A program made the position numbers and the translations under genes. Shown here one piece after another: positions 24,304 through 41,218 of a DNA stretch of 64,000 nt (position 1 is its first letter; every line of letters begins with the position of its first letter). The notes below the pieces were generated by a model. That model saw nothing but the letters and a program-made list of their open reading frames with translations. It ran no database searches and had not been told where the DNA came from. Location: the NCBI RefSeq assembly GCF_001940455.1, contig NZ_MKQR01000028.1, positions 350,057 through 414,056 on the forward strand, in the 5' to 3' direction. The DNA is from Actinokineospora bangkokensis (lineage in GTDB: Bacteria > Actinomycetota > Actinomycetes > Mycobacteriales > Pseudonocardiaceae).

Positions 24304-25544
24304 CGAACACGATCCCACCCGGCATCGAGGGCTGGGCACGCCTCCCAGGACCCGCAGCGGTACTCGACGCCGTGCACACCCGGGCCAGACGCGGGCACCG
24401 CACCGAAACGGGAACGCTCACCGGCCTCGCGCTGACCGCGCAGCAGCGTCGGGAAGTCGCGCTGCTGCTCGGCACCCGGTGGGAACTGTCCGGTAGGCCC
24501 GTCCGTCTCCAGGACATGGCGGTGAAGCTGGCCGAACACCACCTGACCGTCCGCGGACTCGTCGAAGTACTGCACGGCGAACAGATCGAACCCGATAAGG
24601 AATACCGCAGCCGTGCCCAAGCCGTGGCGACCGCTGAGCGCGACCGCGCGGCCACACACCTGATCGAGTCGGGTGTGGCCGTAGATGTGGCGGAGCGATG
24701 GCTGGCCGACACCGGCTTGCCTCGGCCGGGCTCAGGTCAGCTCCAGACCTTGGCCGAACAGGTGGCGACCGTGCTCACCAGACTGCGCACCACGAGCAGC
24801 GGGACAAGGCTCGCCCAACTTGCCGCGGACACCGTGCATGACGCCCACGCGCTCGATGCAGATCGGCAACTGGGACGCGGGGTGGCGCGTCTCCTGGCGA
24901 TCGAGCACGACCTGCCCCGACCACAACGAGCAGGTCGAGCCTGGCGCGCGGCGTGGACCGCTGCGGGGGTGGCGTGCGACGGCGTGTCGTCCCGCGTGCT
25001 GGCGCTGAACCTCCCGCTGACCGGTGAATCCCCGGCCGCGAGGCTGTGCGTCGCCGCTCCCGGCGAGCCCGTCTGGTTGACGCTTCGTTCACTCACGGGC
25101 TCCTGGACTGCTTCCGCGAGTGACGTCTTCGTGTGTGAGAACCCCACGATCGCGGAAGCTGCCGCCGATGCGCTCGGCTTGACCTGTCCACCACTGGTGT
25201 GCACCGATGGGATCGCCTCAGGCGCTGCCCTCGACCTCCTTGCCGGACTCGCCATCGCCGGTTGCACGATCCACGCGCGGGCAGACTTCGACCCGGCGGG
25301 GTTCACCATCGCAGACCAAGTGCTTTCTGTGGCGCCCGACGCGCTGTCGTGGCGGTTCAACGCACGAACTTATGCCGAGGAGCGCGGCCTGAGCGGCCAC
25401 CACGACGCCCCCGAGGATCTCGCGGCGGCTGTCGCCGGATTGCGCGTCGCCTACGACCTCGCACGCCTCCCGGTGCATGAGGAGCGGGTGCTTACCCTGC
25501 TGCTGTCAGACCTCGCGGTCGGAGCAGGCTCCGCGGGTCGGTAG
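24300..25544 (+). CDS. jetD: Wadjet nuclease subunit JetD (DUF2399, Toprim-like)
   Basis: Protein of 414 residues, the topoisomerase VI-A-like DNA-cleaving subunit. The N-terminal two thirds are a DUF3323-like region. The C-terminal DUF2399 Toprim fold carries VCENPTI with Glu280 and DFDPAG with Asp329 and Asp331, the expected acidic metal-binding residues, so it appears catalytically competent. GTG start overlaps the jetC stop. It ends 29 bases before the converging drmC stop, so the Wadjet and DISARM transcripts run into each other. I would class the set as the DUF2397/2398/2399 Wadjet subtype, probably type II in the published scheme, but I am not sure of the number. Confidence 0.87.
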   Translation: MTNTIPPGIEGWARLPGPAAVLDAVHTRARRGHRTETGTLTGLALTAQQRREVALLLGTRWELSGRPVRLQDMAVKLAEHHLTVRGLVEVLHGEQIEPDKEYRSRAQAVATAERDRAATHLIESGVAVDVAERWLADTGLPRPGSGQLQTLAEQVATVLTRLRTTSSGTRLAQLAADTVHDAHALDADRQLGRGVARLLAIEHDLPRPQRAGRAWRAAWTAAGVACDGVSSRVLALNLPLTGESPAARLCVAAPGEPVWLTLRSLTGSWTASASDVFVCENPTIAEAAADALGLTCPPLVCTDGIASGAALDLLAGLAIAGCTIHARADFDPAGFTIADQVLSVAPDALSWRFNARTYAEERGLSGHHDAPEDLAAAVAGLRVAYDLARLPVHEERVLTLLLSDLAVGAGSAGR

Positions 25545-25573: not shown

Positions 25574-26299
25574 TCAAGGCGCGACCTCGTAAAGGGTGTC
25601 CTCGACATCACGCAGTTGCCGCTCCACGGCCTCGGTGAGGTTGCGGTCGTCGAGCAGGACCCCGAACTCGACGTTGCCGTGCTCCGCGCTCCAGGAGAAG
25701 TTCGCGCTGGACACCAGCAGGAACCGGTGGTCGACAGCGACGAACTTGGCGTGGTTGCGCACTACCGCACCACCGAACTCGACGGTTCGCAGGATCACGG
25801 CGGGTGCGAGGTGGTCCGCCACCTCGGCGGCGGTAGGAGCTCCCCGGCCGGAGGCCGACGCGTCGAGGTACACCCGAACCGCGACACCGGGACGCTGCGC
25901 CGCCCGGCGAAGTGCCGTCCACAGACCGGAGGTCCGCTGGAAGTTGAACGTCGAGCACGTCACGGAGTGACGGGCGGCGTCCACCAGGTGTGGGGAGGAC
26001 GCGGTGAGCGGTCCGCCTCGGGCGAGGTGGCCTGGCATCGTCCACAGGGGCGTCGCCGTGGTCGGTGCTGACCGTGCGCCCTCGACAGCGCGAAGCACCG
26101 CGATCTGGGCAGGTGTTGACCCTTCCCGCAGCAGTTCCCGAACACGGCCGCGCTGCCTCTGAGCGACGGCGCGCACAGCGCTGGTGAGCGTGTCGCCCCG
26201 GGACAGGCGGTCGGCGAGCAGGCCAGCCTCCGTGCCAGTGAGCCGTTCCCCAAGCTCGCGGGCTGACGCCGGATCAATCCACTCGGCCGAAAAAGCCAA
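25574..26299 (-). CDS. drmC: DISARM phospholipase D-like protein DrmC
   Basis: Protein of 241 residues ending class 1 DISARM. The HKD motif reads NHAKFVAVD and is followed by SSANFSWSAEHGNVEFGVL, typical of PLD-superfamily nucleases. Only one HKD is present, so it should act as a dimer. The start is not certain: I choose TTG 26297-26299, which has GGGAG five bases upstream, overlaps drmB by 26 bases and gives the usual length for the family. The frame extends further upstream inside drmB, but that part is a shadow of drmB. Family knowledge: DrmC is present in DISARM but was reported dispensable for phage protection in tested systems. Confidence 0.85.
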   Translation of the reverse strand: MAFSAEWIDPASARELGERLTGTEAGLLADRLSRGDTLTSAVRAVAQRQRGRVRELLREGSTPAQIAVLRAVEGARSAPTTATPLWTMPGHLARGGPLTASSPHLVDAARHSVTCSTFNFQRTSGLWTALRRAAQRPGVAVRVYLDASASGRGAPTAAEVADHLAPAVILRTVEFGGAVVRNHAKFVAVDHRFLLVSSANFSWSAEHGNVEFGVLLDDRNLTEAVERQLRDVEDTLYEVAP

Positions 26300-28307
26300 T
26301 GCCGCTCCCGGGGAGGTCGACGAGGAAACGCCGGTCGAGGAACCGGTTCGCCCGTTCGCACGACGTTTCCGACGCCATCGCGCAGCAGTGGCAGGCGGCT
26401 CCGTGCAGGAAGTCCTCCGCGTCCTGGGGAGTGCGCATGGCGCAAATCGGGTCGGAGGAGCAGCGTTGAGCACGGTAGAGCGCTCCCGACACCACACGTT
26501 CCAGCCGCTCCGGCTCACTGAGCTGCACCAGGCCGCCGAGGGTCCCGTCGCTGTCAGAGGCTGTCGTGCAGATCAGCAAACCGGCGGCTGCCGGACGGCT
26601 GTCGGTCTCGGGCCAGGCGTAGAGACGTTCGGACAGGCTCGCGGCGGAGTATCCGCACTTCATCGCCATCTCTCTGATCAAGACGTGGGCGAAGGTGTGC
26701 ACGAGCCAGTAGCGCGGCGGTCGCAGGCGGGTGCTGTGGTCTACCGGTTTCGCGGTCTCGGAGGAGCGCCGCTCGAAGTTGCGCCGGTGAGCCTCGCGGT
26801 GGGCGATCCAGACCGGGTCGTGCTCGACCATCGCCTCCCACTCGGCCACCGCGGACTCGTCGAGCTGGAGGAACACACCTTCCCCTCGGTCCTCGGTGGC
26901 GACCGTCCACGCGGGCCGCTCCGCCCTGGCGAGCGGGACCAGCCGCGAGAGATCGCCGACGCGGTCCATGTCGTCGATACGGGTGAAGCCGACGAGGGCG
27001 TTGACCTTGCGCAGACGCTCGACCGCCAGCACGCGCGTTACCTGCGGACGCAGCGACGGGTCCCGTTCGCGACGGGACAGTGTCAACCCGCTCGTTTCAT
27101 CCTCGTGCCGCAACCCGAGAGGGTCCTTGAGCAGGTACTGCCACTCCGGGACGAGGAGGTCGACCGGGTCCCAGTCCTCGCGCCACCGATCCAGTTCCTC
27201 GTCGGACTCGCCAGGCGCCAGCGCGGCGGCGACCGCCTGGGCGAGCTTGTCGTCGGGAATCGTCGCGAGGTCCGGCGGACTGCCCGGTTTGCCTTCGAGC
27301 ACGTCGCGCAAGGTGTCCAGGTCGTCGGCGTACTTGGCCAGCCTATCGCCGAGCACGGTGCGGATGCGGACCGCGAGGTCCCCAGTGGTCTCCTGCTGGG
27401 ACTCCGGCATGACGATGATCGACTGCGTCGCCGGGAACCACAGGTTCGACGCGCCCACCAGCATCAGCCGCGTCTCTTTGCGGCAACCGCTCGGCTCGAA
27501 CGCGTCCAAGTGCGGGTGACGACCTCGACATCCAGGCAACTTGCCGCGACCCGCCTCGCCCTGGGCCTCGTTCATCGGTCGCCGCGCGCCGCACGACTCG
27601 CAGCCGATGACGGCAGACGCGCCCTTGCCCGCAGTGCGATCGACCATCTTCAACGCGGGGAACTCGGCGTTCGGGCAGGGCGACCAGTGGTGGACCCACT
27701 CGTCGTAAGGGAACTCGTCGAGGTGGCCGTCTACGCAGGCGAGCAGGTACCGGGCAGGCACGGCGATGCGCCGTACGGGCTTGCGGCCGCGATTGCCCGC
27801 GCGTCCCGTGCACTTGGCGTGCTCGAAGCACGCGAGATCGGTTCGGAACGGGTGAGTGTTGGTGTAAGCGAACTGCGACAGGCTGCCGAGCATGTCGCAG
27901 CCGGTGCACCGCATCCACTGCGGGAAGATCCGCGCGGGCACGCCGAGGTCGTTGCCCTCGGTCGAGAAACTGATCTTCTTGGGCTGGTTGGGGTGTGGGC
28001 GCAGCCGCACGTCCCTCGATCGGAGCAGCTTCGCCACCACGTCGCGCAGGCGCGGCGCGCGAATTTCCTGGGGATTGTCGCGCCGCCGCCAGATGCGGTC
28101 CCAGTCGTCCAGGCCGGTGGGCATGATCGTGAACTGCGGCAGATCCATGATCGCGCCGGGCCCGTAGGTGTAGAGCAACGACGACGGGCGGCCGGAGCCG
28201 ACCTTCGCACGATTGTGCTTGATCGCCTTCTCAGCCTCCCTCTCGGCGTCCCCCAGCGGGTCAACAGCCGTCGCGGGGTCGTAGATGAAGCGGGTGTCGG
28301 TGGTCAT
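26274..28307 (-). CDS. drmB: DISARM DUF1998 protein DrmB
   Basis: Protein of 677 residues with the DUF1998 domain at the C-terminus (about 530-677: YWLVHTFAHVLIREMAMKCGYSAASLSERLY, then CHCCAMASETSCERANRFLDR). Several metal-binding Cys pairs are visible, CTGC near 136 and CESC near 236. The Cys-rich pattern is as expected for DrmB, which binds DrmA and DNA and helps recognise incoming phage DNA ends. ATG 28305-28307 overlaps the drmA stop by one base (TGATG). Complete, with no frame damage. Confidence 0.92.
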   Translation of the reverse strand: MTTDTRFIYDPATAVDPLGDAEREAEKAIKHNRAKVGSGRPSSLLYTYGPGAIMDLPQFTIMPTGLDDWDRIWRRRDNPQEIRAPRLRDVVAKLLRSRDVRLRPHPNQPKKISFSTEGNDLGVPARIFPQWMRCTGCDMLGSLSQFAYTNTHPFRTDLACFEHAKCTGRAGNRGRKPVRRIAVPARYLLACVDGHLDEFPYDEWVHHWSPCPNAEFPALKMVDRTAGKGASAVIGCESCGARRPMNEAQGEAGRGKLPGCRGRHPHLDAFEPSGCRKETRLMLVGASNLWFPATQSIIVMPESQQETTGDLAVRIRTVLGDRLAKYADDLDTLRDVLEGKPGSPPDLATIPDDKLAQAVAAALAPGESDEELDRWREDWDPVDLLVPEWQYLLKDPLGLRHEDETSGLTLSRRERDPSLRPQVTRVLAVERLRKVNALVGFTRIDDMDRVGDLSRLVPLARAERPAWTVATEDRGEGVFLQLDESAVAEWEAMVEHDPVWIAHREAHRRNFERRSSETAKPVDHSTRLRPPRYWLVHTFAHVLIREMAMKCGYSAASLSERLYAWPETDSRPAAAGLLICTTASDSDGTLGGLVQLSEPERLERVVSGALYRAQRCSSDPICAMRTPQDAEDFLHGAACHCCAMASETSCERANRFLDRRFLVDLPGSGIGFFGRVD

Positions 28308-31300
28308 CAGGGCTCCGAGGGCGGTTGCCAGCGCGGCGCTCCGGGCGGCGCGATGTAGACGAGGTTCTCCTTCACGGGGCTCACCAAGAGGTTGATCTCC
28401 GGCTGCACCTCCCGCATCGAGTTGGCCACCACGAACGGCGGCGCGTCCCGCGAACCAGTTCGGGACTTGGAGTTCTCGGCGCTCATCATCAACGCGTCGT
28501 GCCTGGTGTCGTCGGTGACCCGCTCGTAGACCATGGACTTGCGGTGGTCGGCCAGGAACCGGCGGCGTTTCTCCCAGTTGTCCAGCCGGTTGCGCAGCAG
28601 GTGGGACGTCCTGAGCGCGGTGTCCTCGTCCGCAGCCCGCAGCACCCGGTCCACCAAGGCGTCGATGATCTCGACGACGACGTCCCGTCGTCCGTCGATG
28701 GCTCCGGCGTTGTGCTCGGGGGACAGCCCTTGCGCCTCGGCGGCCTGAAGGACACGCGCGGCGCTGACGAGGACACCGTCCAGACCTCGGTCCAGCGAGG
28801 TCGCGGAGAACGGCGTGACCGACAAAGCCTCGACCTGGGCGTAAAACGTTTCATGGTAGTACCGGAACTGCTCGAAGTGGGCGAGGTCGCGCGGCCTGGC
28901 CCAGTTGCCCAGGGATACGACCAAGCCGGGGCGAGCGGCGTCGCGCCCGACGCGAGAGGAGGCCTGGATGTACTCGGCGGTGTTCTTGGGTTGCCCGACC
29001 ACCAGCATCAGCCCAAGTCTGGTCACGTCCACACCCACCTGCAGCATGGACGTCGCGAGCACCGCGTCGAACGGGCTCACCTCGCGGGTCGGCACGGGCT
29101 TCTTCGCTGCGCGCTGCGCCATGATCTCCCGCTTGCCCGCGGTGGTGTCGAACTCGGGGGAGAAACCCACAGCCATCTGGTCCAGGGTGGCGGTGATGTC
29201 CGCGCTCGCCACCCGTGAGGTCAGTTCGGCGACGTGCAGGGACCCGAAGTTGGTCCCGGTCCGCCTCGGCAGCGCAGACCACGGGCGGCCCTTCGACAGC
29301 GCCGTCTGGATGTCGTCGCCCATATACCGGGCCATGCCTGCCAATTCGCGGGTCGCGCTGAAGTAGCCCACCAGCGACATGTACGGATCGGCGGCCTCGC
29401 GGGACCGGTCGAACAGCAACTGGCCCGCCGCCAGCAGCACCTCGGCGACGCGGATCTCGGCGGTGGTGAGACGCACACCCGTGGTGGACAGCCCGATGTA
29501 GCGGCGCCCTGGGAACCTATCCGAGATCTCCTCCTCCTTGGAGAAGAACGTCCGGCCGGCGTCGAGAACCTGTGGGGGAAAGATAGTCACATCTCGCCCG
29601 TAGAGCGCTTTGACCTGATCAGCGGCATTGCGGGCGGTGGCGGTCGAGGCGACGAGCAGCGGGCGGACTGGCTGCCCATTGGCGGTGCGCCACATGCTCA
29701 TGACGTCGATCGCGACCTCGAAGAGCCCTACTGTGGTGCCGAGCGCGCCGGTGATCAGGTGCAGCTCGTCCTGGATGATCAGATCCGGCGGCCGCAGACG
29801 AATCCCGGGACGTACAGGTGCCACAGGCAGACCAGCCTTGACGGGATGTTTGTTCCCGACCTTGATCTCGCAGTGCTTGTAGTCGGGGTGCACCACTCCG
29901 TGCCGCTCGCACCGACGCGAGACGTACCCAAAAAGCGAAGCAGCCTCACCTTCACGTGCGAGCCGTGCGAACTTGTCGACGGTCGCAATGACGAAGGACG
30001 GTGTCAGGCGGTAGATCTCCTCATCGACCGTCAGCACCGGCAGACCGTCGGGCGAGTCGCCGCCTTCAGCAAACGGGCACTCGGCGAGGTCGTCGCCGCA
30101 GTACACGTGCACCCGCCGCGTCTCAGCCCTGGCTACGACGTCCTTGGACGTGATCTTGGTTCCGCACCACGGGCAGCGTTGGATCTGCAACACCGTGAGC
30201 CGGTATCCGACACCGGTGTTGTTGGCGCGGGTGAGCTGAGCCTCGGCTTCGTCGAACCGCTTCGGGCTGACGTCCGTTCCGACCCACAACCCTATCCGGA
30301 ACGGTTCGGCACCCCACGTGTCGACATCGGCGAGGCGGGCGACCTCCGCCGCGCAGACCAGGGCCGTGGCGCGCTGGAACTGCTGCGCGGTGAGCAGTCG
30401 CAGTGTGTAACGCATCAGCACTGCCACGCCGGAGTTGCCGTCCAGCGGTCCATCCGGTGTAAACACCTCGCGCTGCTGACGGCGGATCGCGAACGTGTAC
30501 GCGGCCAGGCCCAGGTACGCCTCGGTCTTGCCACCACCAGTCGGGAAGAACAGCAACTGCGCCTTCGGATCACCGCCGGAGCGGCGCTCGGCTGCGGGGT
30601 CTGTGAGCATCGGCAACTGCATCAGCACGAACGCGAGCTGGAACGTTCGCCAGGAATGTGCCTTCGGGCCCTGCGCGAGCACTGCGGTCCGCGCCTGCTC
30701 GATCGTTTCCCGCGGGTTCTTCGCCCGCCGTTGCGCCACCTGCGACTGGATTCGCTGATCGGCCATGACCTGGTTCATGAACCGGAAGCAGCGCAGAGCT
30801 TCCTCGTCGGAGAGCAGGTGCTCTAGCCCGGCGGCCAGCTGTGCCTGAACCTGCCGGGCCTCCTCGACCAGTTCGATCCCGTCCTCGCGCAGGTGCTCCG
30901 GCAGCGCTTTTGCGCGGGTGAGTTCACCATCGAGCCAAGTCCCATAGCCACGGACGATGGGTTCCAACCCGGCGCGCAACTCCTCCTCGGTCGCGGTGCT
31001 CAATGCGCGCATATCCAGCAGCGCCGACCCGATCTCCTCGGCGGTGGTCTGCGGCGTCTCGGCGGTCGGCAGCCAGGTCGTCCACACGGCGCTCGCCCGC
31101 CTGCTTCCAGCGGACGACTCCCAGTCCACGGAACAGGTTCGGCCGATAGCGAACTCCAACCGGTCGCGGTACTGGAGGTTGAGCCTGCGGAGTTCGTCGT
31201 CGCGTTCCTCGCGGGCGTCAGTGAGCCGGTCCGTCACCGGCATGAACACTTCCGCACCGCCCGCGTCGACCTTGACCCTTGTTTGATATAGCCACGCGTT

Positions 31301-31978
31301 GACCGGGATCTTGCGCGGCGCGACCCGGTCGTTGCACAGCGCCACCTCGATGAGCCGCTTGCCGTCCGTGACGTCGTCATACCGGTCGATGCGCAGCACC
31401 ACGGTGTCGCGGAGGTGGATCGTCGTCGTCCGCGCGGGGCTGAGGTCGGCGACGACGACCTTCTTGACGAACTCGATCGGCGTGCGCTTGTACCGCCGGA
31501 CCTTGCTCTCCTTGTCCTTCATCGGCTCGTACTGCCCCCACGAGGCGGTGACGGTGAACTCGGCGAGGTCGTCGGGAATCTGGCAGCGCAGGCCCATCGA
31601 CGCCGGGATCATCAAACCGCGCTGCTGCGGCTGGTCCTCGACCTCGTCCTCGTCGGCGCCCGCGCCGCTCTCGTCCACAGCGGTGACTGGCACGCCCTGC
31701 ACCTGCTCGGCGTCGAAGGCGTCGCCGACATCGGTGGCGGCCTCGTCCTCCTCGGCGTCAGACGGATCGTCACGACCCGCCTTGAGCTTGAACGGCGCGA
31801 TCCGCCCGACCAGGTACACCACGTCCGGCGGGCCGTCGAGCACCTCCTCCGGACCGTTGGCGGGCCCAAGGAGTTCCCGTTCGAGGATGTCGACCAGGTT
31901 CTCCCGTACCGTCAGCGACGTTCCGTCCGGCTCGTGCGCGAGGCGGTACTGCTGTTCACGCTCGTGCGGCGCGGTCAC
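28307..31978 (-). CDS. drmA: DISARM helicase DrmA
   Basis: Protein of 1223 residues. An N-terminal region of about 450 residues is followed by a superfamily 2 helicase: Walker A FFPTGGGKTEAYLG near 480, zinc-type CPWCG and CGDD near 600-640, Walker B box DELH (LIIQDELHLITG) near 735, motif III STATAR, and motif VI QASSRVGRD near 1007. DrmA with DrmB forms the core DISARM complex. The GTG start overlaps the drmMI stop (GTGA). An acidic stretch (about 70-120) with many Asp and Glu lies in the N-terminal part. Key helicase residues are all present. Confidence 0.92.
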   Translation of the reverse strand: MTAPHEREQQYRLAHEPDGTSLTVRENLVDILERELLGPANGPEEVLDGPPDVVYLVGRIAPFKLKAGRDDPSDAEEDEAATDVGDAFDAEQVQGVPVTAVDESGAGADEDEVEDQPQQRGLMIPASMGLRCQIPDDLAEFTVTASWGQYEPMKDKESKVRRYKRTPIEFVKKVVVADLSPARTTTIHLRDTVVLRIDRYDDVTDGKRLIEVALCNDRVAPRKIPVNAWLYQTRVKVDAGGAEVFMPVTDRLTDAREERDDELRRLNLQYRDRLEFAIGRTCSVDWESSAGSRRASAVWTTWLPTAETPQTTAEEIGSALLDMRALSTATEEELRAGLEPIVRGYGTWLDGELTRAKALPEHLREDGIELVEEARQVQAQLAAGLEHLLSDEEALRCFRFMNQVMADQRIQSQVAQRRAKNPRETIEQARTAVLAQGPKAHSWRTFQLAFVLMQLPMLTDPAAERRSGGDPKAQLLFFPTGGGKTEAYLGLAAYTFAIRRQQREVFTPDGPLDGNSGVAVLMRYTLRLLTAQQFQRATALVCAAEVARLADVDTWGAEPFRIGLWVGTDVSPKRFDEAEAQLTRANNTGVGYRLTVLQIQRCPWCGTKITSKDVVARAETRRVHVYCGDDLAECPFAEGGDSPDGLPVLTVDEEIYRLTPSFVIATVDKFARLAREGEAASLFGYVSRRCERHGVVHPDYKHCEIKVGNKHPVKAGLPVAPVRPGIRLRPPDLIIQDELHLITGALGTTVGLFEVAIDVMSMWRTANGQPVRPLLVASTATARNAADQVKALYGRDVTIFPPQVLDAGRTFFSKEEEISDRFPGRRYIGLSTTGVRLTTAEIRVAEVLLAAGQLLFDRSREAADPYMSLVGYFSATRELAGMARYMGDDIQTALSKGRPWSALPRRTGTNFGSLHVAELTSRVASADITATLDQMAVGFSPEFDTTAGKREIMAQRAAKKPVPTREVSPFDAVLATSMLQVGVDVTRLGLMLVVGQPKNTAEYIQASSRVGRDAARPGLVVSLGNWARPRDLAHFEQFRYYHETFYAQVEALSVTPFSATSLDRGLDGVLVSAARVLQAAEAQGLSPEHNAGAIDGRRDVVVEIIDALVDRVLRAADEDTALRTSHLLRNRLDNWEKRRRFLADHRKSMVYERVTDDTRHDALMMSAENSKSRTGSRDAPPFVVANSMREVQPEINLLVSPVKENLVYIAPPGAPRWQPPSEP

Positions 31979-34900
31979 TCGCCACCCTCCTCTTCTTGTA
32001 TGGGCGGCGGTGCCTCGCCCTGAGCGGCGGCGCGCTTATGGTTTTCTTCGAGCAGCAGGTCCAGAATTTCCACGCGGGCGGCCGGACTGACCGTCCAGCG
32101 GGTCATCTGTCGGTACGTGTGGAAACCGTGGTCGAGCGGCACGTCGTCCCAGCCGTAGGCGGCCATCACGGCGCGATCGAGTTCGACGTGAATCTCCCGC
32201 ATCCGCGCCACGTCGGCATCGTCGGAATCGGCGGTGCCGGGGTCGTTGACCAGGTTGTACAGCTTGGTCAACCCAAGCTGGCGCCGCAACATGATCTCCC
32301 GCCGCTCGCCGTCCAACACCCGCCCAACCTCCGCCAGTCGCTCGGTCGGCTCAGGGCGAGGGAACGTCTCGAACACATCGGACGGAGTGTAACGGGGGTC
32401 GTTCCGCATCCCCGATCCATACTTGATCGCCCAGGTCTGGTGCATACTCGACGACAACACCGCTTGATCAGCGAACGACTCCGTCGCGAAAATGACCGTA
32501 GCTTCACTGGCAACAAGTTTCCCGCTTACTCGCACAGGCATTACGGTCTTGCTGACTCGCGCGATGACCAACACGTCGGTCAAGCCCGCGACAGCCTTTC
32601 GCATACCAAGCGCCAGCTCCGCAAACTGCCACCATCGATCTCGTCGCGCACTTCTTTTATTTTTCAATCGTTCTGGGCGGACCCTTCCATAAACACGCTG
32701 AAAGGGGGCAGCGTATTGCTTTGCGGCAGACTCGGTAAGATTATTGAAGTCGATCACCCGGCGGGATGGGGACGTGTCCGGGCGGGAGTTGAGGTCTTCA
32801 CCATTGAGGTAGGGAAAGAGCACCTCGGCGTTCTTCGCGTCGGCTTCGATCCAGTCGGCGGCTTCCTCGGGTTCCAGCACGAACCCCATGCCCAGCACAT
32901 AGCAACCGATAAAGGCCATGCCGGTGTTCTCGGCCAGCCGGACCGGTGCGCCGTCCACCCGCCCGGCGGGCTCCAAGAGGGTCGAGATGCCCGCCACCGC
33001 CACGCCATCGGCCACCCGGGGAACCTCGCCCGCGACCGCCTCCCGCGTGCCCCACACCGCCGCGTACTCCAGGTTGGCGCTGGCTACCGGCCACGACCTG
33101 CTTTGGATCGCCCGCGTGATGGTGAAGCCACCGGCGACCATCCGGTCCAGCCCCACCTCACGGGTGTCGCCCTGCGCCACAGTGTTGGTGGCGATGAGCC
33201 CGAGATTGCCATGAGCGTTGAGCAGTGCACTCGCCCGCAGGAAGAAGTACCCGACAAGGTCGGCGCTGCCCTTGGTGCCGCCCGCCACCGCGTTCACGAA
33301 CCAGTCCCGGACATTGGTGCCCATCGTGCCGGTCAGCTTCTGACCACCCAGGAAGGGCGGGTTGCCGATGACCGCGTCGAAACCGCCGCGAGTCATCACG
33401 TCCGGCACCATCACCGGCCAGTGCAGCGGTTTCCAGCGTTCGTAGTCGGTGCGCACGGTCGGAGTCAGTCCGGCGGTCAGAATCCCGTCGAGCATGGCGC
33501 GGTCGCCATCGGGCGCGTAGGCGTCGCTGAGTGCGATGCGCAGGTTCTCGTACTCGGCGTTGAGCTTTTTGCTCGGTTTGCCTCCGGGTCTCAGACCGGC
33601 CGCGGTCACGGCGTCGCCGATCTCGTTCAGGCGCGCGACCAGTTCCCGGTACTCACCCCACTGGCGGCGCTTGGTGGTCGCGGACCGCTGCGGATCGGCG
33701 TTGTCGACCTCGCTGGCTAGCTTCTCCCGCAAGCGCACCGCCCGGCTCAGGATGCCGTCCAAGTCAGGCTGGAACAGCGGCATCTGGCGCACGGAGTCGG
33801 GGTCGATGTGCTGGAACTTCAACTGCCGCACGTCGGTGATCCCCAGCAGCGAGTTGCCGTGCAGGATCTTGTCGTCCACGAACGAGAACGGCAACCTGGC
33901 GTCCAGCGACACCAGCCACAGCGAGAGCTTGCACATCTCCACAGCCATGCCGTTGATGTCCGCCCCGTACAAGCAGTTGGCCACCACGGTCCGGACAGCG
34001 TGGGTCTGCTGGTCGTGCGGCGTGCCGATGGCGACGCCCTCCCGCCGCCACGCCTCCACCAGCCGCGCCGCGAGGTACCGCGCCGCCGCCACGAGGAAGG
34101 CGCCCGAGCCGCACGCGATGTCGGCGATCTTCAGGTCGAGGATGCGGTCCGACGACACCGGCGCCCAGGCGTCCCGGTTCGCCGTCTGGTGCGGCCCCGG
34201 GTCGTAGACCAACGGCTCCAGAGCGTGCAGCACCACCTCCTCGGCCAATGACTTGGGTGTGTAGTGCGCACCCGCCGAAGCGCGCGACGGCGTCTCCACC
34301 ACCAGCACACCACCCGGCACGGCAACCAGAGGCCGGTTCCGCAGGTCCCGGCGGATGATCCCGACGAACGGACGCAGACGGTGGCGCAGCTCCTCGTCCG
34401 TCGTGACCGCGCGCAGCGCCCGCTCCGCGTCCTCGACCTGCGAGCTCTCCCGGATCGCCTTGGTCAGCGCGGCCTTGGACGGCGGGGTGGCGGCGGGCTG
34501 GTTCTCCTTGGCCCAGGCGAGCAGGGCTTCGGCCAGTGCCGTGTCGGTGCGCTTGGACTCGGCGAAGGATTCCAGCACGGCCAGCGGAACCTCGGGCTCC
34601 TCGCCCTCCTTCCCGATGAGGCCGACCATCACTTCATCGACCTCGGCGCAGGAGTAGCCCAGCAGGCCCTCGTAGATGTAGCCGATCTGCTCCACGTCGA
34701 TGTCGCGGAACGAGATGCGCCGGGCGGGTTGCCCCTTGATCTTGGCGACCTGCACGGCCCGCAGCACTTCCAGCATCACCCGGTCGGACACGGTGATCGC
34801 GAGCCCACCGGACCGGCCCCACGCGGTCAGGAAAGGAAAGCGGCCCGAGTCGAACAGCGAGCCGCCGTAGGACGGTAGGCGGATGTCCTCGAAGGACGCA

Positions 34901-35967
34901 CCCTGGTACAGCGCCAGAGAGGTGGCGAGCAGGCGGTGCCAGGTCAGGTAGGTGTTGTCGAGGGCCTCGGCACTCTCCTCGCGGACGCGGGTGTCGAGTG
35001 CGTCCAACTCCTCGCTGATGCCGTAGCCCAAGTTGAACAGCCGCCCCTGCGGCAGCAGGCCGCGTTCCTCGGCGAACAGCAGGAACACCACCCGCATCAT
35101 CACCGTCACGGCCGCCTCGTAGACCTCGCCCCGGTCCTCGGGCAGCGGGTCGTCCTCGGCGCCCAGCGCCGCCTCGGACAGGGCTTGCACGAGCAGTTCG
35201 ACCGCGCGGCGCACCTGGGTGCCCAGGGCCTCGGTGATCTCTTCGGCGGCGGCGACCGATTCGCCGAACAGCTCGGTCAGTCGGTCCTCGGGCTTGCCGC
35301 CGATCAGCCTGCGGCGCTGGAGCAGCGCGATCACCGCGTCGCGTGTCTGGGCTTCCTCGATCCACGTCTGTGCGTCCACGATGCCCGAGGCGGCCATCGT
35401 CTCCCTGCGAGCGCTGACGATCGCCCACCAGCGGCCGTCGGTGACCACACCAATGGGCACACCGGAGGAGCGCAGCAGCTCCTCCACGCGATCAATCGGA
35501 GAAGCGGCCCACCCGTCGTCCAGCGGATCGCGCAGCGACTCGACCGGGTCGACCACGAGCACCAGCGCGCCGACAGCCTCCCTGTGGACCACCTCGCCGC
35601 TGGCGCGCATGGTCACGCTGTGGTCCGGAGAGCGTACCTCAGCAGTGGAGTCCGCGCGGTAGGACTCGCCCCAGCCGAACACGTCACGGAGGACGGTCTC
35701 CACCCAGATGTCCCGCTCCTTGCGGTACAGCTCCAATGAGCCCGGGTCGTCCCGCCGGAAGTCCCAGTCCTCCCACGCCTTCTCGAACGCTGGCTTGGCG
35801 TCCTTGAGGGCCGCTACCGCATCCGCGTCCGGTCGCGGCATCCCCTGCGGCCAGACGCGTTTCAACGCTGGCACCGCCAGGAAAGGCCCGTCGGTGTCGA
35901 CCAGTTCCAGCCACCGGCGGTGCAGCTCGGCTTCGTTCGGCGGGGACTTGCGGCCGGGGCGCGTCAT
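31975..35967 (-). CDS. drmMI: DISARM class 1 adenine methyltransferase DrmMI
   Basis: Protein of 1330 residues resembling type IIL/Eco57I-like N6-adenine methyltransferases. The N-terminal half (about 1-560) is helical with no clear nuclease motif. Motif I is ADIACGSGAFLVAAA near 621 and the catalytic NPPF (GNPPFLGGQKLTG) is near 870. A C-terminal target-recognition domain follows at about 1050-1260. It should mark host DNA so that DISARM does not attack it. The recognition domain is encoded by much more AT-rich DNA than the rest (29 of 60 G/C at 32641-32700), suggesting replacement of that domain by transfer. ATG start overlaps the drmD stop. Confidence 0.9.
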   Translation of the reverse strand: MTRPGRKSPPNEAELHRRWLELVDTDGPFLAVPALKRVWPQGMPRPDADAVAALKDAKPAFEKAWEDWDFRRDDPGSLELYRKERDIWVETVLRDVFGWGESYRADSTAEVRSPDHSVTMRASGEVVHREAVGALVLVVDPVESLRDPLDDGWAASPIDRVEELLRSSGVPIGVVTDGRWWAIVSARRETMAASGIVDAQTWIEEAQTRDAVIALLQRRRLIGGKPEDRLTELFGESVAAAEEITEALGTQVRRAVELLVQALSEAALGAEDDPLPEDRGEVYEAAVTVMMRVVFLLFAEERGLLPQGRLFNLGYGISEELDALDTRVREESAEALDNTYLTWHRLLATSLALYQGASFEDIRLPSYGGSLFDSGRFPFLTAWGRSGGLAITVSDRVMLEVLRAVQVAKIKGQPARRISFRDIDVEQIGYIYEGLLGYSCAEVDEVMVGLIGKEGEEPEVPLAVLESFAESKRTDTALAEALLAWAKENQPAATPPSKAALTKAIRESSQVEDAERALRAVTTDEELRHRLRPFVGIIRRDLRNRPLVAVPGGVLVVETPSRASAGAHYTPKSLAEEVVLHALEPLVYDPGPHQTANRDAWAPVSSDRILDLKIADIACGSGAFLVAAARYLAARLVEAWRREGVAIGTPHDQQTHAVRTVVANCLYGADINGMAVEMCKLSLWLVSLDARLPFSFVDDKILHGNSLLGITDVRQLKFQHIDPDSVRQMPLFQPDLDGILSRAVRLREKLASEVDNADPQRSATTKRRQWGEYRELVARLNEIGDAVTAAGLRPGGKPSKKLNAEYENLRIALSDAYAPDGDRAMLDGILTAGLTPTVRTDYERWKPLHWPVMVPDVMTRGGFDAVIGNPPFLGGQKLTGTMGTNVRDWFVNAVAGGTKGSADLVGYFFLRASALLNAHGNLGLIATNTVAQGDTREVGLDRMVAGGFTITRAIQSRSWPVASANLEYAAVWGTREAVAGEVPRVADGVAVAGISTLLEPAGRVDGAPVRLAENTGMAFIGCYVLGMGFVLEPEEAADWIEADAKNAEVLFPYLNGEDLNSRPDTSPSRRVIDFNNLTESAAKQYAAPFQRVYGRVRPERLKNKRSARRDRWWQFAELALGMRKAVAGLTDVLVIARVSKTVMPVRVSGKLVASEATVIFATESFADQAVLSSSMHQTWAIKYGSGMRNDPRYTPSDVFETFPRPEPTERLAEVGRVLDGERREIMLRRQLGLTKLYNLVNDPGTADSDDADVARMREIHVELDRAVMAAYGWDDVPLDHGFHTYRQMTRWTVSPAARVEILDLLLEENHKRAAAQGEAPPPIQEEEGGE

Positions 35968-38900
35968 GCGCGCACCATCCCGGCCTCGGCGTCCGCCGGG
36001 GTCAGCGCGAACACGACCGCCGCGGCGGAGACGTGCGGCCTGATGTCCCGGTAACGCTCCTCGATCGAGGCGACCTCACGCCGTTCCTCTTCGTCCAAGC
36101 CCGCAAGCCGGTCCTCCATCGCGCGCAGGTCACGGCGGCGCTGGGCCTGCTGGTCGTCGGTGAACAGCTTCTCCTCCTCGGCGCGGATCTCGCCCGCCAA
36201 CCGGTCGCGGGACTCCCGCAGGTTCTCCCGGAAGGCGCCGAAGATCTCGTGCACGCGGGCGATGTCGGAGTTCCGACGGCGTTCCAGGTCCTCGGTCACT
36301 CGGGTCTGCCGCGTCTCCGCCTTACGCCTCATCGCGGCCTCCAACCGCGTGCGCAGCCGGGAACCCTCCGCGTTCCACATCTCGCTCAGCGTCGCGCGCA
36401 CGCTCTCGCTGGCCAGCGAGAGGTCTTCGGCGTCCAAGGTGGCGTCGAGCACGTCTTCGACCTTCTGTTCGGCCATCGCGTTGCCGTGCACCCGGATGCC
36501 GGTCAGGAAGACCTCCTCGTGCAGCCTCAGTCCACCCCTGCCGACCAGGACCAGTCGGGACACCGCGGCCACGCACGACTCCGGCAGGTCCTCGGCGACG
36601 ACCGCGGTCACGCGGTTCACCGGCGAGTCCACGCCGAACAGCGCGCTGCGCAGCACCCTCGTGGCGCGCTGCATGAGCCCATGACCGAGGTGGACGTGCA
36701 CCAGGTCGGGCCTTCCTCGCGCGGCCGTGTCGTCGAACGTGATCGGCCGGGGCTTGCCAGGTTCCAACCGGGTGTCCAGACCGCGCAGGGCAACCTGCCA
36801 CGCCGCACCCAGGTTCGGCACCGAGAAGACCGGGGCGTCGGTGTCCTCGGCGAAGGAGAAGTCCTCCACCAGGGGAGGCTGGGCGGTGAGGGTGAGGGCG
36901 GTGTCCACAACGCGGCGGGCGTTGGCGGGAGTCAGATGCATCTCCGTCTTCCGAGCATCGTAGGTACTGGACAGCTCGGTAAGCCTGCGGTTGAGCTCCT
37001 GCCCGCCGGCAAGTGTGGAGTTGATGACGGCGTTGCCGTCGTCGGGGGCCGTGCGCCGTGCCTTGCGCCCACCGGGTGCAGGGGCGAAGTGGTCTTGCAC
37101 GACCTGGTTGACCGAGTCGAGGTCGGCGGCCACTGTCCCGATCTTGTTCGCCACCCGCTCCACCAGGAACCTGGCGTCCCGCGCGTACGTGCCGTCGGAG
37201 ATGTCGGGGACGAACTGAAAGATCTGTGGCGTCTCGCGCTGCCCGTATCGGTCGATCCGACCGATCCGCTGTTCGAGTCGGGACGGGTTGAACGGGATGT
37301 CGAAGTTGACCAGCCGGTGGCAGTGGTCCTGGAGATCGATGCCCTCGCCTGCGGAGTCGGTCGCCACCAGAACGCGCACCAGGTGCTTCGACGGGTGGGC
37401 GGTGAACTGGGCGCGGATCAGCTCCCGCTCTTCGGTGGGCGTGGAGCCTTGGATCGTCGCCAGCACGTCGCGGTAGCCGCGTTGAGTCAGCACGTCCGCG
37501 ATCCACTCGAGGGTGACCGCGTACTCGGTGAACACCACCACGCGGTCGTTGGTCCATGTGCGGCCATCCGGGCGGCACACCCCGTCGAGGAAACGGATCA
37601 GCGCCTCCAGCTTCGAGTCCGGTCGTTTTTCGTACCGGCTCCCCCAGGCGATCAGGGTCTCGATCTCCCGGCCGGTGGCGGCGACCAACGGGTCGGAGCG
37701 CTTGCTCTGCCGCAGAGCGGTGAACTCGGGGTGCTCGGCGTCACCCTCCTCCTCGTCGGACTGGCCACTGCCCAACACCTCGGTGTAGTACTGGTCCTCG
37801 TCGTCGAAGTCGAGTTGGCGTCCCGTGCCCGCAGCCTGTTCATACAGTTCCAGCGTGCGGGCGAAGGCCCAAGGGCTGGACAGGAAGCGCTTCTTCAGCA
37901 GCATGGCCACGAGCCCGCCGGCGTGCCCTCGCCCGTTCGCACGGGCGCTGTCGGCGAGGATGCGGTCCAGCAGGGCGAAGTGGCGCTCCTCCTGATCGTC
38001 GAGCGTGAAGGGGATCTGCTTCAGCTCCCGAGCGCGGAACCCCTTCTCCGGCAGTTCAGACTTCAACCGGCGCACCGCGACCTCCCGCAGCGCACGCTTG
38101 TCCAGCATCGCGCCGCGGGTGAACCGACGGCCGTCGATCATCTCCATGAGCGCGGTGAACGACTCTGAGTAGCCGTTGTGCGGGGTCGCGCTGAGGAAGA
38201 GGCGGTGCTCGCACTTCTCAGCGAGAGTCTTCGTCGCAATGGTGCGCTGGCTGTCAACGGCGTAACCCCGCCCTCCTGGGGCTGTCGACGGGCTTGCGGG
38301 AGCGACGTGGTGCGCTTCGTCGACCACCAGCACGTCGAACGCGAACCGGCGCGCCGACTTGGTGTCCGACACATCGGCGAACACATCACGCAACAGGCGC
38401 TGCGCCCTTAGGGCGGGCAACCACGACATGCTGACGATCACCCTGGGGAACAGCCGGAACGGGTTGGCCGCCAGTCCGTGGCTGCGCCGGACCCGCGCCA
38501 TCAAGGCGCTGTTGACGATGACGAACTCCAGGCCGAACTTCTCCCGCATTTCGTCCTGCCACTTCAGCGCGAGGCTGGGCGGGCAGACGATGACCACGGA
38601 TCGGGCGCGGTGCCGAAGCAGCAGCTCCTGGATGACGAGCCCGGCCTCGATGGTCTTGCCCAGGCCGACGTCGTCGGCGAGCAGCAGGTTCGTTCGTGAC
38701 GACTGGAGAGCGCGTCGCAGCGGTTCGAGCTGGTACGCCTCCACGTTCGCGCCACTGCGGAACGGTGCCTGGTAGGAATCCGCGTCTGCCGAGGTCACGG
38801 CACCCCAGCGCACGGCGTCCACGAAGGCTGCCAGCGTGGTCGGGTCGTCGAACCCGTCGGGCGTGATGGTCTCCGGCAGACCCTGGTCGGGCGCGACGGT

Positions 38901-39143
38901 GTGCCCGACCTCCAGCTCCCACACCACGGTGAGCTCCTGCCCCAGGCGGTCCTCCTCCAACGACTGGAGGTTGACGGCGTGGGTGATGCCTGCGACCCCC
39001 TCGTCGGCAGGGCTGCGTGGCAGGCCCTGCCGACGGACCGACGCCACCGCCCACGTCGACCCCCGGACGTTGACGACCTGCCCGGGTTCAGGCACTGGCG
39101 GCAAGGCTGCCGACCTGGGCGGGTCGTCGGACACGACGGTCAC
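35964..39143 (-). CDS. drmD: DISARM SNF2-like helicase DrmD
   Basis: Protein of 1059 residues with a SNF2/RapA-like helicase core. Walker A DDVGLGKTIEAG lies near 161, the DEAH box VVDEAHHVAP near 275, motif III SATPHNGYSES near 330, and motif VI EQRIGRIDRYGQ near 628. The C-terminal third is Arg/Glu-rich and coiled-coil-like. DrmD defines class 1 DISARM. I start at GTG 39141-39143 because GGAGAGGGG lies about six bases upstream. A GTG eight codons earlier (39167) has no RBS and is a possible longer form. It heads the drmD-MI-A-B-C transcript and faces the XRE/ImmA regulator across about 80 bases. Confidence 0.9.
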   Translation of the reverse strand: MTVVSDDPPRSAALPPVPEPGQVVNVRGSTWAVASVRRQGLPRSPADEGVAGITHAVNLQSLEEDRLGQELTVVWELEVGHTVAPDQGLPETITPDGFDDPTTLAAFVDAVRWGAVTSADADSYQAPFRSGANVEAYQLEPLRRALQSSRTNLLLADDVGLGKTIEAGLVIQELLLRHRARSVVIVCPPSLALKWQDEMREKFGLEFVIVNSALMARVRRSHGLAANPFRLFPRVIVSMSWLPALRAQRLLRDVFADVSDTKSARRFAFDVLVVDEAHHVAPASPSTAPGGRGYAVDSQRTIATKTLAEKCEHRLFLSATPHNGYSESFTALMEMIDGRRFTRGAMLDKRALREVAVRRLKSELPEKGFRARELKQIPFTLDDQEERHFALLDRILADSARANGRGHAGGLVAMLLKKRFLSSPWAFARTLELYEQAAGTGRQLDFDDEDQYYTEVLGSGQSDEEEGDAEHPEFTALRQSKRSDPLVAATGREIETLIAWGSRYEKRPDSKLEALIRFLDGVCRPDGRTWTNDRVVVFTEYAVTLEWIADVLTQRGYRDVLATIQGSTPTEERELIRAQFTAHPSKHLVRVLVATDSAGEGIDLQDHCHRLVNFDIPFNPSRLEQRIGRIDRYGQRETPQIFQFVPDISDGTYARDARFLVERVANKIGTVAADLDSVNQVVQDHFAPAPGGRKARRTAPDDGNAVINSTLAGGQELNRRLTELSSTYDARKTEMHLTPANARRVVDTALTLTAQPPLVEDFSFAEDTDAPVFSVPNLGAAWQVALRGLDTRLEPGKPRPITFDDTAARGRPDLVHVHLGHGLMQRATRVLRSALFGVDSPVNRVTAVVAEDLPESCVAAVSRLVLVGRGGLRLHEEVFLTGIRVHGNAMAEQKVEDVLDATLDAEDLSLASESVRATLSEMWNAEGSRLRTRLEAAMRRKAETRQTRVTEDLERRRNSDIARVHEIFGAFRENLRESRDRLAGEIRAEEEKLFTDDQQAQRRRDLRAMEDRLAGLDEEERREVASIEERYRDIRPHVSAAAVVFALTPADAEAGMVRA

Positions 39144-39188
39144 GTGGTTCCCCTCTCCGAAAGTCACTGCCAGTTATCATCATGCTCT

Positions 39189-39205
39189 CTTGCGATTTTC
39201 GCAAG
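39189..39205. promoter_or_regulatory. Palindromic operator between drmD and the XRE regulator
   Basis: CTTGCGATTTTCGCAAG is a perfect palindrome with 7-bp arms and a 3-base centre, the only such site in the divergent spacer. It overlaps TTGCGA -35-like elements for both directions. Binding here by the adjacent XRE protein would shut both the regulator and the DISARM operon. Confidence 0.7.
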
Positions 39206-39217
39206 TCCGGTTAGGGT
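39190..39217 (+). promoter_or_regulatory. Leaderless promoter of the XRE/ImmA gene
   Basis: TTGCGA (39190-39195) and TAGGGT (39212-39217) are separated by 16 bases. Transcription would begin about seven bases later, at the GTG itself (39225), giving a leaderless mRNA, consistent with the absence of any RBS. Confidence 0.5.
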
Positions 39218-39224
39218 CGGCCGT

Positions 39225-40325
39225 GTGACAAGCGTTCCGGACCGCGTGCGCGACCTGATCAAAGCGTCGAACCTGACCCGCCGTGCCTTCGCCGCGCGGA
39301 TCGGTCTCGACGAGTCCAAGCTGTCCAAGTCGTTGAGCGGTACACGACGCTTCTCCTCGGTCGACCTCGCTCGTATCGCCGAAACCTGCGACGTGACCGT
39401 GGACTGGCTGCTTACGGGAGACACGCCCGCGGTGAGCATGGCCGCCAGAGCGAGCGGCGGTAGCGCGCGGTCGGCCCTCGAAGCCGCGACGCGCTTCAGC
39501 GCTACCCGTGCCGACCTGGCGACGCTCGGCTACTCCCAGCAGTGGCGAACCCCGCCGTCTCGCCGTGTGGCGAACCGGTACGCGGACGAAGGCCGAGACC
39601 TGGCGCACTGGGCAACCGAGGTGTGCGGCGAGTCCGGCCCTCCCGCGACCACCAAGGACCTGAGCAGCCTGGTCGAAGCGGTCTTCGGCGCCGATGTGGC
39701 CGTAGTGGACCTCGACAGCGACTTCGACGGTCTGGCTGTCTCCTCGGCCAACGTAAAGCTGATAGTGCTCGCCACCAGCCCGCTCCCGTCGAGGCAACGA
39801 TTCACGCTCGCCCACGAACTCGGGCACCTGCTCGCCGGTGACGACCAGGACATTCACCTCGACCGGGATGTCTTCGACCGCGCGCAGACCAGAGATCCGG
39901 GGGAGGCGCGCGCCAACGCTTTTGCTTCCGCGTTCCTCATGCCCGAGGCTGCGCTGCGTAGTGCTGTGCAGGCGGGCATCACGGAAGCGGCTTTCGCCTC
40001 GCTCGCGTGCGACCTGGTCGTCAGTCCATCCGCGCTCGCCTACCGCCTGCTTCACCTGAGATTCATCGACGCGGGGACCTGTGACCGTTACAAGACGATC
40101 ACCGCCGCCAAGGCCGCACACATGGCGGGTCGAGGCGACGAGTTCGCCCGACAAGTCGCTGCGTCGAGCACGACGCGGCTACCCGGCCTTCTAGTACAAG
40201 ACGCTTACGCCGCCTATGAGGCAGGGAAGACTACGCTCAGGCCGTACGCGAACCTTCTCGGAGTCAATGTCGACGTCCTCCGCGACTCGATCGAGGCCAA
40301 CACGGTGGTGGACGGCGCTTCGTGA
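39225..40325 (+). CDS. XRE-family regulator with ImmA/IrrE metallopeptidase domain
   Basis: Protein of 366 residues. An N-terminal XRE helix-turn-helix (about 1-60: RRAFAARIGLDESKLSKSLSGTRRFS) is followed by a linker. Next is a COG2856/ImmA-type zinc peptidase with LAHELGHLLAG near 196 and the downstream Glu-containing EARANAFASAFLMP helix. ImmA-type enzymes cleave partner repressors under stress. Here the DNA-binding and protease parts are in one chain, so it could cleave itself or a partner, releasing repression. It is divergent from DISARM across a palindrome and overlaps the following PIN-like remnant by GTGA, which is a common arrangement of XRE-ImmA with a toxin-like PIN partner. Confidence 0.85.
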   Translation: MTSVPDRVRDLIKASNLTRRAFAARIGLDESKLSKSLSGTRRFSSVDLARIAETCDVTVDWLLTGDTPAVSMAARASGGSARSALEAATRFSATRADLATLGYSQQWRTPPSRRVANRYADEGRDLAHWATEVCGESGPPATTKDLSSLVEAVFGADVAVVDLDSDFDGLAVSSANVKLIVLATSPLPSRQRFTLAHELGHLLAGDDQDIHLDRDVFDRAQTRDPGEARANAFASAFLMPEAALRSAVQAGITEAAFASLACDLVVSPSALAYRLLHLRFIDAGTCDRYKTITAAKAAHMAGRGDEFARQVAASSTTRLPGLLVQDAYAAYEAGKTTLRPYANLLGVNVDVLRDSIEANTVVDGAS

Positions 40326-40600
40326 ACACGTTCCTGTTCTCGGACAACACGGTGTTATGCAACTTCGCCGCTGTCGATCGCCTCGACCTGCTCGAATCGG
40401 CGCTGAACCAGCGCGGCAGATGGACCGAAGCGGTCGCGTACGAGGCGTCGAGGTCCGCATCCTCCCTCCCCGCCAGGCATAACGACCCGGGAGGCGATCA
40501 ACATCGTCGCCATCGCGGTGGCCCACGGTGACATCGCCGAGACCCAGCGTTCGACCTTATGCACATGATGGTGCAGGCCGGGAGGTCCCCCGTCTTCCAC
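40322..40600 (+). pseudogene. Frameshifted remnant of a PIN-like protein, partner of the XRE/ImmA gene
   Basis: A GTGA overlap opens a frame reading NTFLFSDNTVLCNFAAVDRL through TEAVAYEASRSA, with the acidic SDNTVLCNF start of PIN-fold proteins, to about 40450. The match then stops and resumes in another frame at about 40479 (ITTREAINIVAIAVAHGDIAE). It returns to the first frame at about 40553 (DLMHMMVQAGRS). A large internal part, including the further acidic residues, is missing. Two frame changes and a deletion mark it as dead. The family resemblance is from pattern memory and unverified. Confidence 0.6.
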
Positions 40601-41142: not shown

Positions 41143-41218
41143 TGGTGCCCCCGGCAGGATTCGAACCTGCGACACACGGTTTAGGAAACCGATGCTCTAT
41201 CCCCTGAGCTACGAGGGC
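41143..41218 (-). tRNA. tRNA-Arg (anticodon CCT), CCA encoded
   Basis: The minus strand folds as a normal cloverleaf. The acceptor starts GCCCTCG (paired with CGGGGGC), the D-arm contains GCTCAGGGGATAGAGC, the anticodon loop is TTCCTAA with anticodon CCT, and the T-arm is GCAGGTTCGAATCCTGC. Discriminator A is followed by an encoded CCA (41143-41145). It reads the rare AGG codon. Its 3' end faces the defence island, which is the classical integration target of tyrosine-recombinase elements. Confidence 0.96.
41149..41160 (+). other. tRNA part duplicated at the far side of the island
   Basis: CCCCGGCAGGAT inside the tRNA T-arm/acceptor is repeated at 16544-16555 in the same direction. It is the candidate right attachment half-site, placing the tRNA 3' end at the island border. 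Confidence 0.4.

Follow-up and report, generated by a model that had tools for sequence, protein, structure and literature searches.

A fused XRE-ImmA regulator and its probable operator, head-to-head with a DISARM operon in Actinokineospora bangkokensis

CapH and CapP, a repressor and an ImmA-like protease encoded by two separate genes, are described as a pair in which the protease is activated by single-stranded DNA, cuts the repressor and controls CBASS (cyclic oligonucleotide-based antiphage signalling system). The pair is also reported beside Pycsar and DISARM (defence island system associated with restriction-modification): the excerpted text of PMC10693628 associates it with DISARM, and that of PMC13373217 mentions DISARM in connection with CapW/BrxR and CapH+CapP jointly. 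Here we analysed 64,000 nucleotides of Actinokineospora bangkokensis (contig NZ_MKQR01000028.1; 'the window'), in which a similar combination of a lambda-type helix-turn-helix (HTH) and an M78 zinc protease domain is found beside an immune operon, namely head-to-head with DISARM. In contrast to CapH+CapP, a single chain of 366 aa, hereafter the regulator, holds both domains, its gene diverges from drmD with a putative shared operator between them, and in relatives a gene for a PIN-fold partner comes next. An inverted repeat between the two genes is very probably the operator of the regulator.

Other described systems resemble this locus in part. As far as the excerpted text of the respective papers goes, an association of XRE-COG2856 fusions with neighbouring PIN toxins was predicted in 2009 (PMC2701414), the ImmA antitoxins of RosmerTA go with a variety of toxins (PMC10440598), and PD-lambda-2 has an Xre-peptidase fusion (PMC9519451). 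As in the RosmerTA and XRE-COG2856/PIN pairs, an HTH-ImmA protein overlaps or adjoins a toxin-like gene, and PADLOC models of RmrA match; unlike in those pairs, what is left of the partner gene here is a broken remnant, and a complete DISARM operon lies head-to-head with the regulator. IrrE/PprI and DdrO of Deinococcus are two proteins rather than one chain; in the regulator, the C-terminal part is helical and revealed no GAF-type sensor. BrxR/CapW, the WYL repressors of BREX (bacteriophage exclusion) and CBASS, are likewise dedicated regulators beside defence operons, but a WYL domain is absent from the Pfam matches of the regulator. With RptR, a repressor linked to restriction-modification, the locus shares the joint conservation of regulator and palindrome across defence loci; the excerpt of PMC12255303, however, describes RptR as a small helical protein with 6-bp sites and mentions no protease domain. 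A search of open-access papers found no description of the fused regulator, its operator or the control of drmD. The first-pass annotation had considered a protease-gated DISARM switch to be new. That idea is already in print for CapH+CapP beside DISARM, whereas the fused HTH-protease chain with its PIN-fold partner, the defined conserved operator, and the occurrence of related modules next to BREX and Wadjet-like genes apparently are new.

Class 1 DISARM consists of drmD and drmMI together with the core genes drmA and drmB (and drmC). It is complete in the window: all five PADLOC models matched, and the genes are adjacent on the minus strand (Table 1). The likely drmD start, GTG 39143, is the candidate with GGAGAGGGG upstream; the longest drmD open reading frame begins at 39167. 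Taking this start and GTG 39225 of the regulator, the two genes are separated by 81 bp. The spacer contains CTTGCGATTTTCGCAAG, an inverted repeat with the core TTGCGA-N3-TCGCAA (39190-39204). The repeat had been called perfectly palindromic, which holds for its 7-bp arms (7/7 complementary), but not for the 3-nt TTT centre, which is non-symmetric and interrupts the palindrome. Nor is it central in the spacer as claimed, since 45 bp separate it from drmD and 19 bp from the regulator; it is located between both putative -10 boxes. The TTGCGA hexamers noticed for both genes do overlap a putative -35 on either side (read 39190-39195 toward the regulator and 39204-39199 toward drmD). Taken alone, the repeat is an event of about 2% by chance and thus barely beyond it, since 388 of 20,000 base-shuffled spacers contained a perfect repeat of at least 7 bp with a loop of at most 8. 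We judge it to be real because it is conserved in other genomes, and on this ground a chance repeat was rejected. In the search for further copies that the first-pass annotation had proposed, allowing up to two mismatches, the 15-mer TTGCGATTTTCGCAA occurs at two places in the 7.45-Mb genome, exactly only here and once with two mismatches.

Conservation was followed in 397 genomes of the order, 396 of the phylum and 390 of the family, with the window's genome counted in the order and phylum sets; the counts use no tree and ignore kinship. The regulator is uncommon (14/397 order genomes at E 1e-20, 4/396 phylum genomes at E 1e-30). A drmD search of the family genomes gave 43 places, spread over 41 genomes; 30 of these places were inspected for the site, within flanks of at most about 1.5 kb. 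Here the core was present in 9 of 11 drmD loci with the regulator versus none of the 19 without it, where the best partial matches upstream of drmD had 3-5 mismatches. We therefore rejected an operator that belongs to DISARM itself. Searching the same genomes for the regulator gave 16 places in 15 genomes, and the core lay upstream in 14 of the 16. Six regulator relatives from a scan of public genomes were all divergent from drmD; the core was present in the spacers of three (L003, L004, L005) and absent from the others (L006, L007, L008). It also precedes distant regulators (35-46% identity) that adjoin a PIN-like gene, in L029-L033, L046, L133 and the plasmid locus L216, and no DISARM gene was found in the examined stretches of these loci.

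Presence of the core follows the recognition helix. Among 31 loci, hand-picked from those retrieved with same-genome duplicates omitted, all 20 with the exact core carry the helix pattern [KA][LM][SN][KR][SA]L, which was written after inspection. Ten loci with other helices all lack the core; six are remote relatives and four are DISARM-linked, with KLSQSM in L007 and L008 and QFRECL in L006 and L045. In these four, no exact or near core was found (best 4-5 mismatches), and no inverted repeat with arms of at least 6 bp lies upstream of L006, L045 or L056 (the L007 locus). The 31st locus, viral contig L136, has the helix KLTKSL. It was the only viral relative examined for the site, and its operator-like sequence has one mismatch. 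The strongest match to the regulator among the 80 retained of 173 viral-contig relatives is 35% identical, and a phage origin of the regulator was rejected, as the phage collection yielded nothing at E values up to 1e-15. The earlier proposal that the regulator may act through a shared palindrome is thus supported in part: the core tracks the regulator and its recognition helix, is very probably part of its operator, and overlaps the putative -35 of both genes.

A search with TTGCGAWWWTCGCAA alone found the pattern in 82 of the 390 family genomes, while the reversed control gave zero among the matches listed. The 30 pattern loci analysed, the first in returned order and not a random sample, comprised 3 copies of this regulator, 17 members of an XRE-TetR family (picked by the regulator profile), 8 long hairpins and 2 unassigned loci (L090, L091). 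The XRE-TetR proteins are about 290 aa long (L093-L102, L106, L107, L109, L113-L116). All 14 that were read of the 17 have a KLSK[SA]L helix and the site just upstream of their gene; one was domain-scanned and contains HTH plus TetR domains, and this recognition helix is also found in PDB entry 4ich. The two families have little in common beyond the HTH, yet they share the site, so an operator exclusive to the XRE-ImmA regulator was rejected. This suggests a readable helix-to-site code common to two actinobacterial regulator families, and cross-regulation is possible where one genome has both. The long hairpins (L103-L105, L108, L110, L111, L117, L118), all from one genus, are centred on TTGCGAATTTCGCAA or TTGCGAAATTCGCAA and look like terminator or repeat elements.

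The regulator itself contains HTH_3 (9-62), Peptidase_M78 (173-275; PF06114, 63.4 bits) and a helical C-terminal part. Its N-terminal HTH_3 fold places it among XRE proteins, and an HExxH motif plus a downstream Glu in an M78 fold among ImmA/IrrE peptidases. The peptidase had been described as intact, which agrees with HELGH at residues 197-201 and with conserved active-site residues: H197, E198, H201 and E227 are invariant in 43/43 aligned sequences. E227 aligns with a residue of IrrE that is presumably a metal ligand, and is itself the likely third ligand. In the AlphaFold2 model (pLDDT, predicted local distance difference test, 85.8), VIA-align gave CapP (7t5t) as the best structural match of the M78 domain among those listed, and the CapH N-terminal domain (7t5u) was among the matches of the HTH. 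Ala-Ala-Arg at residues 73-75 (39441-39449), in the linker that joins the HTH to the protease domain and is modelled with low confidence, is also invariant in 43/43; we regard it as a candidate region for cleavage.

Both putative promoters overlap the repeat. On the regulator side, a TAG-initial hexamer follows TTGCGA at 16-18 nt in 9/10 DISARM loci, L028 having TTGAAT at 17. The regulator start codon lies 20-21 nt after the core in the DISARM loci compared, a nearly fixed distance; a leaderless or nearly leaderless transcript is therefore likely. On the drmD side, a hexamer of the form xAxxxT (A second, T sixth) was found at exactly 17 nt in 9/10 DISARM loci (TTAGAT in the tenth), 3/9 other regulator loci and 0/14 XRE-TetR loci, with hexamer pattern and spacer chosen after inspection and several of the ten loci being close relatives. 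In a recount that examined spacers of 14-21, this xAxxxT hexamer occurred at 16-18 nt on the far side in 9/10, 3/9 and 3/14 loci respectively, and on the regulators' own side in 8/10, 9/9 and 14/14. L078, whose drmD is about 82% identical and where no regulator was found, lacks the operator and keeps GATGAT and the ribosome-binding sequence, which thus belong to drmD. Given this 17-bp spacing between the weak drmD -10 and the shared half-site, a single dimer could block both promoters. In L004, a 51-bp inverted repeat (9947-9997; 24-bp perfect arms, 3-nt centre) spans both divergent promoters and makes them mirror images.

The first-pass annotation overlooked that a PIN-fold partner usually accompanies the regulator and that the operator follows the regulator rather than DISARM. 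In relatives the partner is an open gene of 172-201 aa (L003-L006, L027-L033, L045, L046; the start region differs in L030), and structural comparison by VIA assigns the L003 copy a PIN/VapC-type fold with conserved acidic residues. The copy in the window has lost its central part and its reading frame, so the intact paired toxin gene of a RosmerTA-like system is lacking. Pairwise ratios of nonsynonymous to synonymous substitution (dN/dS) against A. rifamycinica, which has locus L003, were 0.19 for the regulator, 0.075 for drmD and 0.073 for the first 50 PIN codons; the last value indicates that the loss is too recent to judge selection on the regulator after it.

We propose that the regulator would bind TTGCGA-N3-TCGCAA as a dimer via its N-terminal HTH, and that this operator covers the -35 of its own and of the divergent drmD promoter. 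One bound dimer would then repress the regulator gene, along with any intact PIN partner gene, and all of drmD-drmMI-drmA-drmB-drmC. On a signal of damage or infection the repressor would be lost, most likely through its own CapP/IrrE-like metalloprotease domain, which would release DISARM. As a whole, we consider this explanation probable. The pairing of regulator and operator is well supported by the comparisons across genomes, while the overlap with a real drmD promoter is supported more weakly. The dimer, repression rather than activation, and the operon-wide effect are what we infer from this arrangement; cleavage of the repressor and its trigger are suggested by analogy. Repression of DISARM by the regulator appears likely, and protease gating plausible.

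Several observations weigh against this explanation. DISARM does not need the site, as the DISARM loci L006, L045, L007 and L008 have a regulator relative without it. Conversely, the site appears to serve regulator-PIN pairs without DISARM, and autoregulation alone would account for its conservation; L131 has a 62%-identical regulator and the site, and the 16 kb examined there contain no DISARM gene. In 8 of the 30 pattern loci the 15-mer is part of long hairpins unrelated to regulators. Besides the choice of hexamer and spacer after inspection, the promoter contrast becomes smaller with spacers of 16-18 (9/10 versus 3/9, Fisher 0.02), the two putative promoters have weak boxes, and no promoter is predicted in 39000-39400 by a strict sigma-70 scan. 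The BREX-facing side of L133 has no -10 pattern, so that control of BREX there is unsupported by this measure. Finally, the excerpt of PMC9142583 speaks of constitutive DrmAB expression.

The site could thus serve autoregulation only, in an XRE-ImmA/PIN pair that resembles toxin-antitoxin systems, with drmD near by through defence-island linkage and served by its own promoter. Its retention in regulator-PIN loci without DISARM (L029-L033, L131) and before XRE-TetR genes agrees with this, as do the xAxxxT hexamers at 16-18 nt, present on the own side of 9/9 other regulator loci versus 3/9 on the far side, and the old prediction of XRE-COG2856 fusions beside PIN toxins. We regard it as improbable, since the far-side -10 is present in 9/10 DISARM loci, the divergent arrangement with drmD recurs at 14 of 15 distinct loci at least 55% identical to the regulator (L131 being the other), L004 is symmetric across both promoters, and L078 attributes GATGAT and the ribosome-binding sequence to drmD. 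Compatible with the operator part of our proposal is a regulator that represses both promoters but uses M78 to sense a ligand or partner (PIN toxin, nucleotide, CoA), with release by conformational change. This is less likely than not in view of the four invariant active-site residues and of CapP as best structural match, which the excerpt of PMC10904395 describes as a protease. Activation of drmD from the shared site is very unlikely: a weak drmD promoter could need help, but nothing specific points to it, and the putative -35 of either gene, which the site overlaps, is where a repressor usually binds. That the repeat is a product of chance or a terminator-type hairpin is scarcely credible. 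Some 2% of shuffled spacers have an equally good repeat, and the hairpins elsewhere, which are likely terminators, indicate that the 15-mer can arise otherwise; at this locus, however, a scan of 39000-39400 revealed no terminator-like site, and the repeat is conserved between divergent starts, at a near-fixed distance from the regulator and tied to its recognition helix.

Relatives of the module also occur in other neighbourhoods. In L133 (6530-8026) a regulator-PIN pair with the operator is divergent from a truncated BrxC/PglY (BREX) gene, with a GmrSD-type gene beyond PIN; the same genome (G919) also has a DISARM-linked regulator with a changed helix and no operator. In L132 (7859-15304) such a pair with the operator lies just downstream of a different DrmA-DrmB pair, in a stretch that also includes a relative of drmD and a type II methyltransferase. 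Regulator relatives adjoin Wadjet-like genes in L046 and L216. Another kind of DISARM link is seen in L047 (3537-14995), where a 35%-identical regulator, accompanied by a PIN gene and lacking the operator, is flanked by relatives of DrmA and DrmMI. In the window, a complete Wadjet set (PADLOC JetA2, JetB2, JetC2, JetD2; 17142-25544, plus strand) directly beyond drmC marks a defence island, and a tRNA-Arg (CCT; 41143-41218, minus strand) some 600 bp beyond the PIN remnant is a possible integration point of this island.

Table 1. Coordinates of the regulator, its putative operator and promoters, and the DISARM genes in the window
Feature	Position	Strand	Evidence
XRE-ImmA regulator, 366 aa	39225..40325	+	Pfam; PADLOC CapP/RmrA/CapH matches; alignments; AlphaFold2 model; VIA-align
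Putative operator, inverted repeat CTTGCGA-TTT-TCGCAAG (CTTGCGATTTTCGCAAG)	39189..39205		sequence; conservation in relatives; single exact genomic copy
Putative -35 (TTGCGA), regulator promoter, inside operator	39190..39195	+	sequence; same layout in 10 DISARM loci compared
Putative -10 (TAGGGT), regulator promoter, 16-nt spacer	39212..39217	+	inferred from sequence
Putative -35 (TTGCGA), drmD promoter, inside operator	39199..39204	-	locus comparison
Putative -10 (GATGAT), drmD promoter, 17-nt spacer	39176..39181	-	locus comparison
PIN-fold partner remnant, start overlapping regulator stop	40322..40538	+	tblastn pieces
drmD (SNF2-type helicase), likely start GTG 39143	35964..39143	-	PADLOC DrmD, 1273.9 bits
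drmMI (methyltransferase)	31975..35967	-	PADLOC DrmMI, 1673.6 bits
drmA	28307..31978	-	PADLOC DrmA, 950.2 bits
drmB	26274..28307	-	PADLOC DrmB, 236.5 bits
drmC (PLD domain)	25574..26518	-	PADLOC DrmC, 360.8 bits

Tentatively, the fused HTH-protease, PIN nuclease and operator may form a portable controller cassette that serves DISARM, BREX and Wadjet-like systems, from a position before or next to them, and couples their expression to a toxin held in check by one common repressor. Inactivation of the regulator would turn on DISARM and free or induce the PIN nuclease as a fallback; here, the toxin arm would have been lost and the DISARM switch kept. The locus offers an identified regulator and a probable operator of 17 bp, together with natural variants that differ jointly in helix and operator and a drmD lineage lacking both, so that control of DISARM becomes amenable to a simple reporter experiment. 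The recurrence of the module beside different systems suggests that one controller is reused across bacterial defence.
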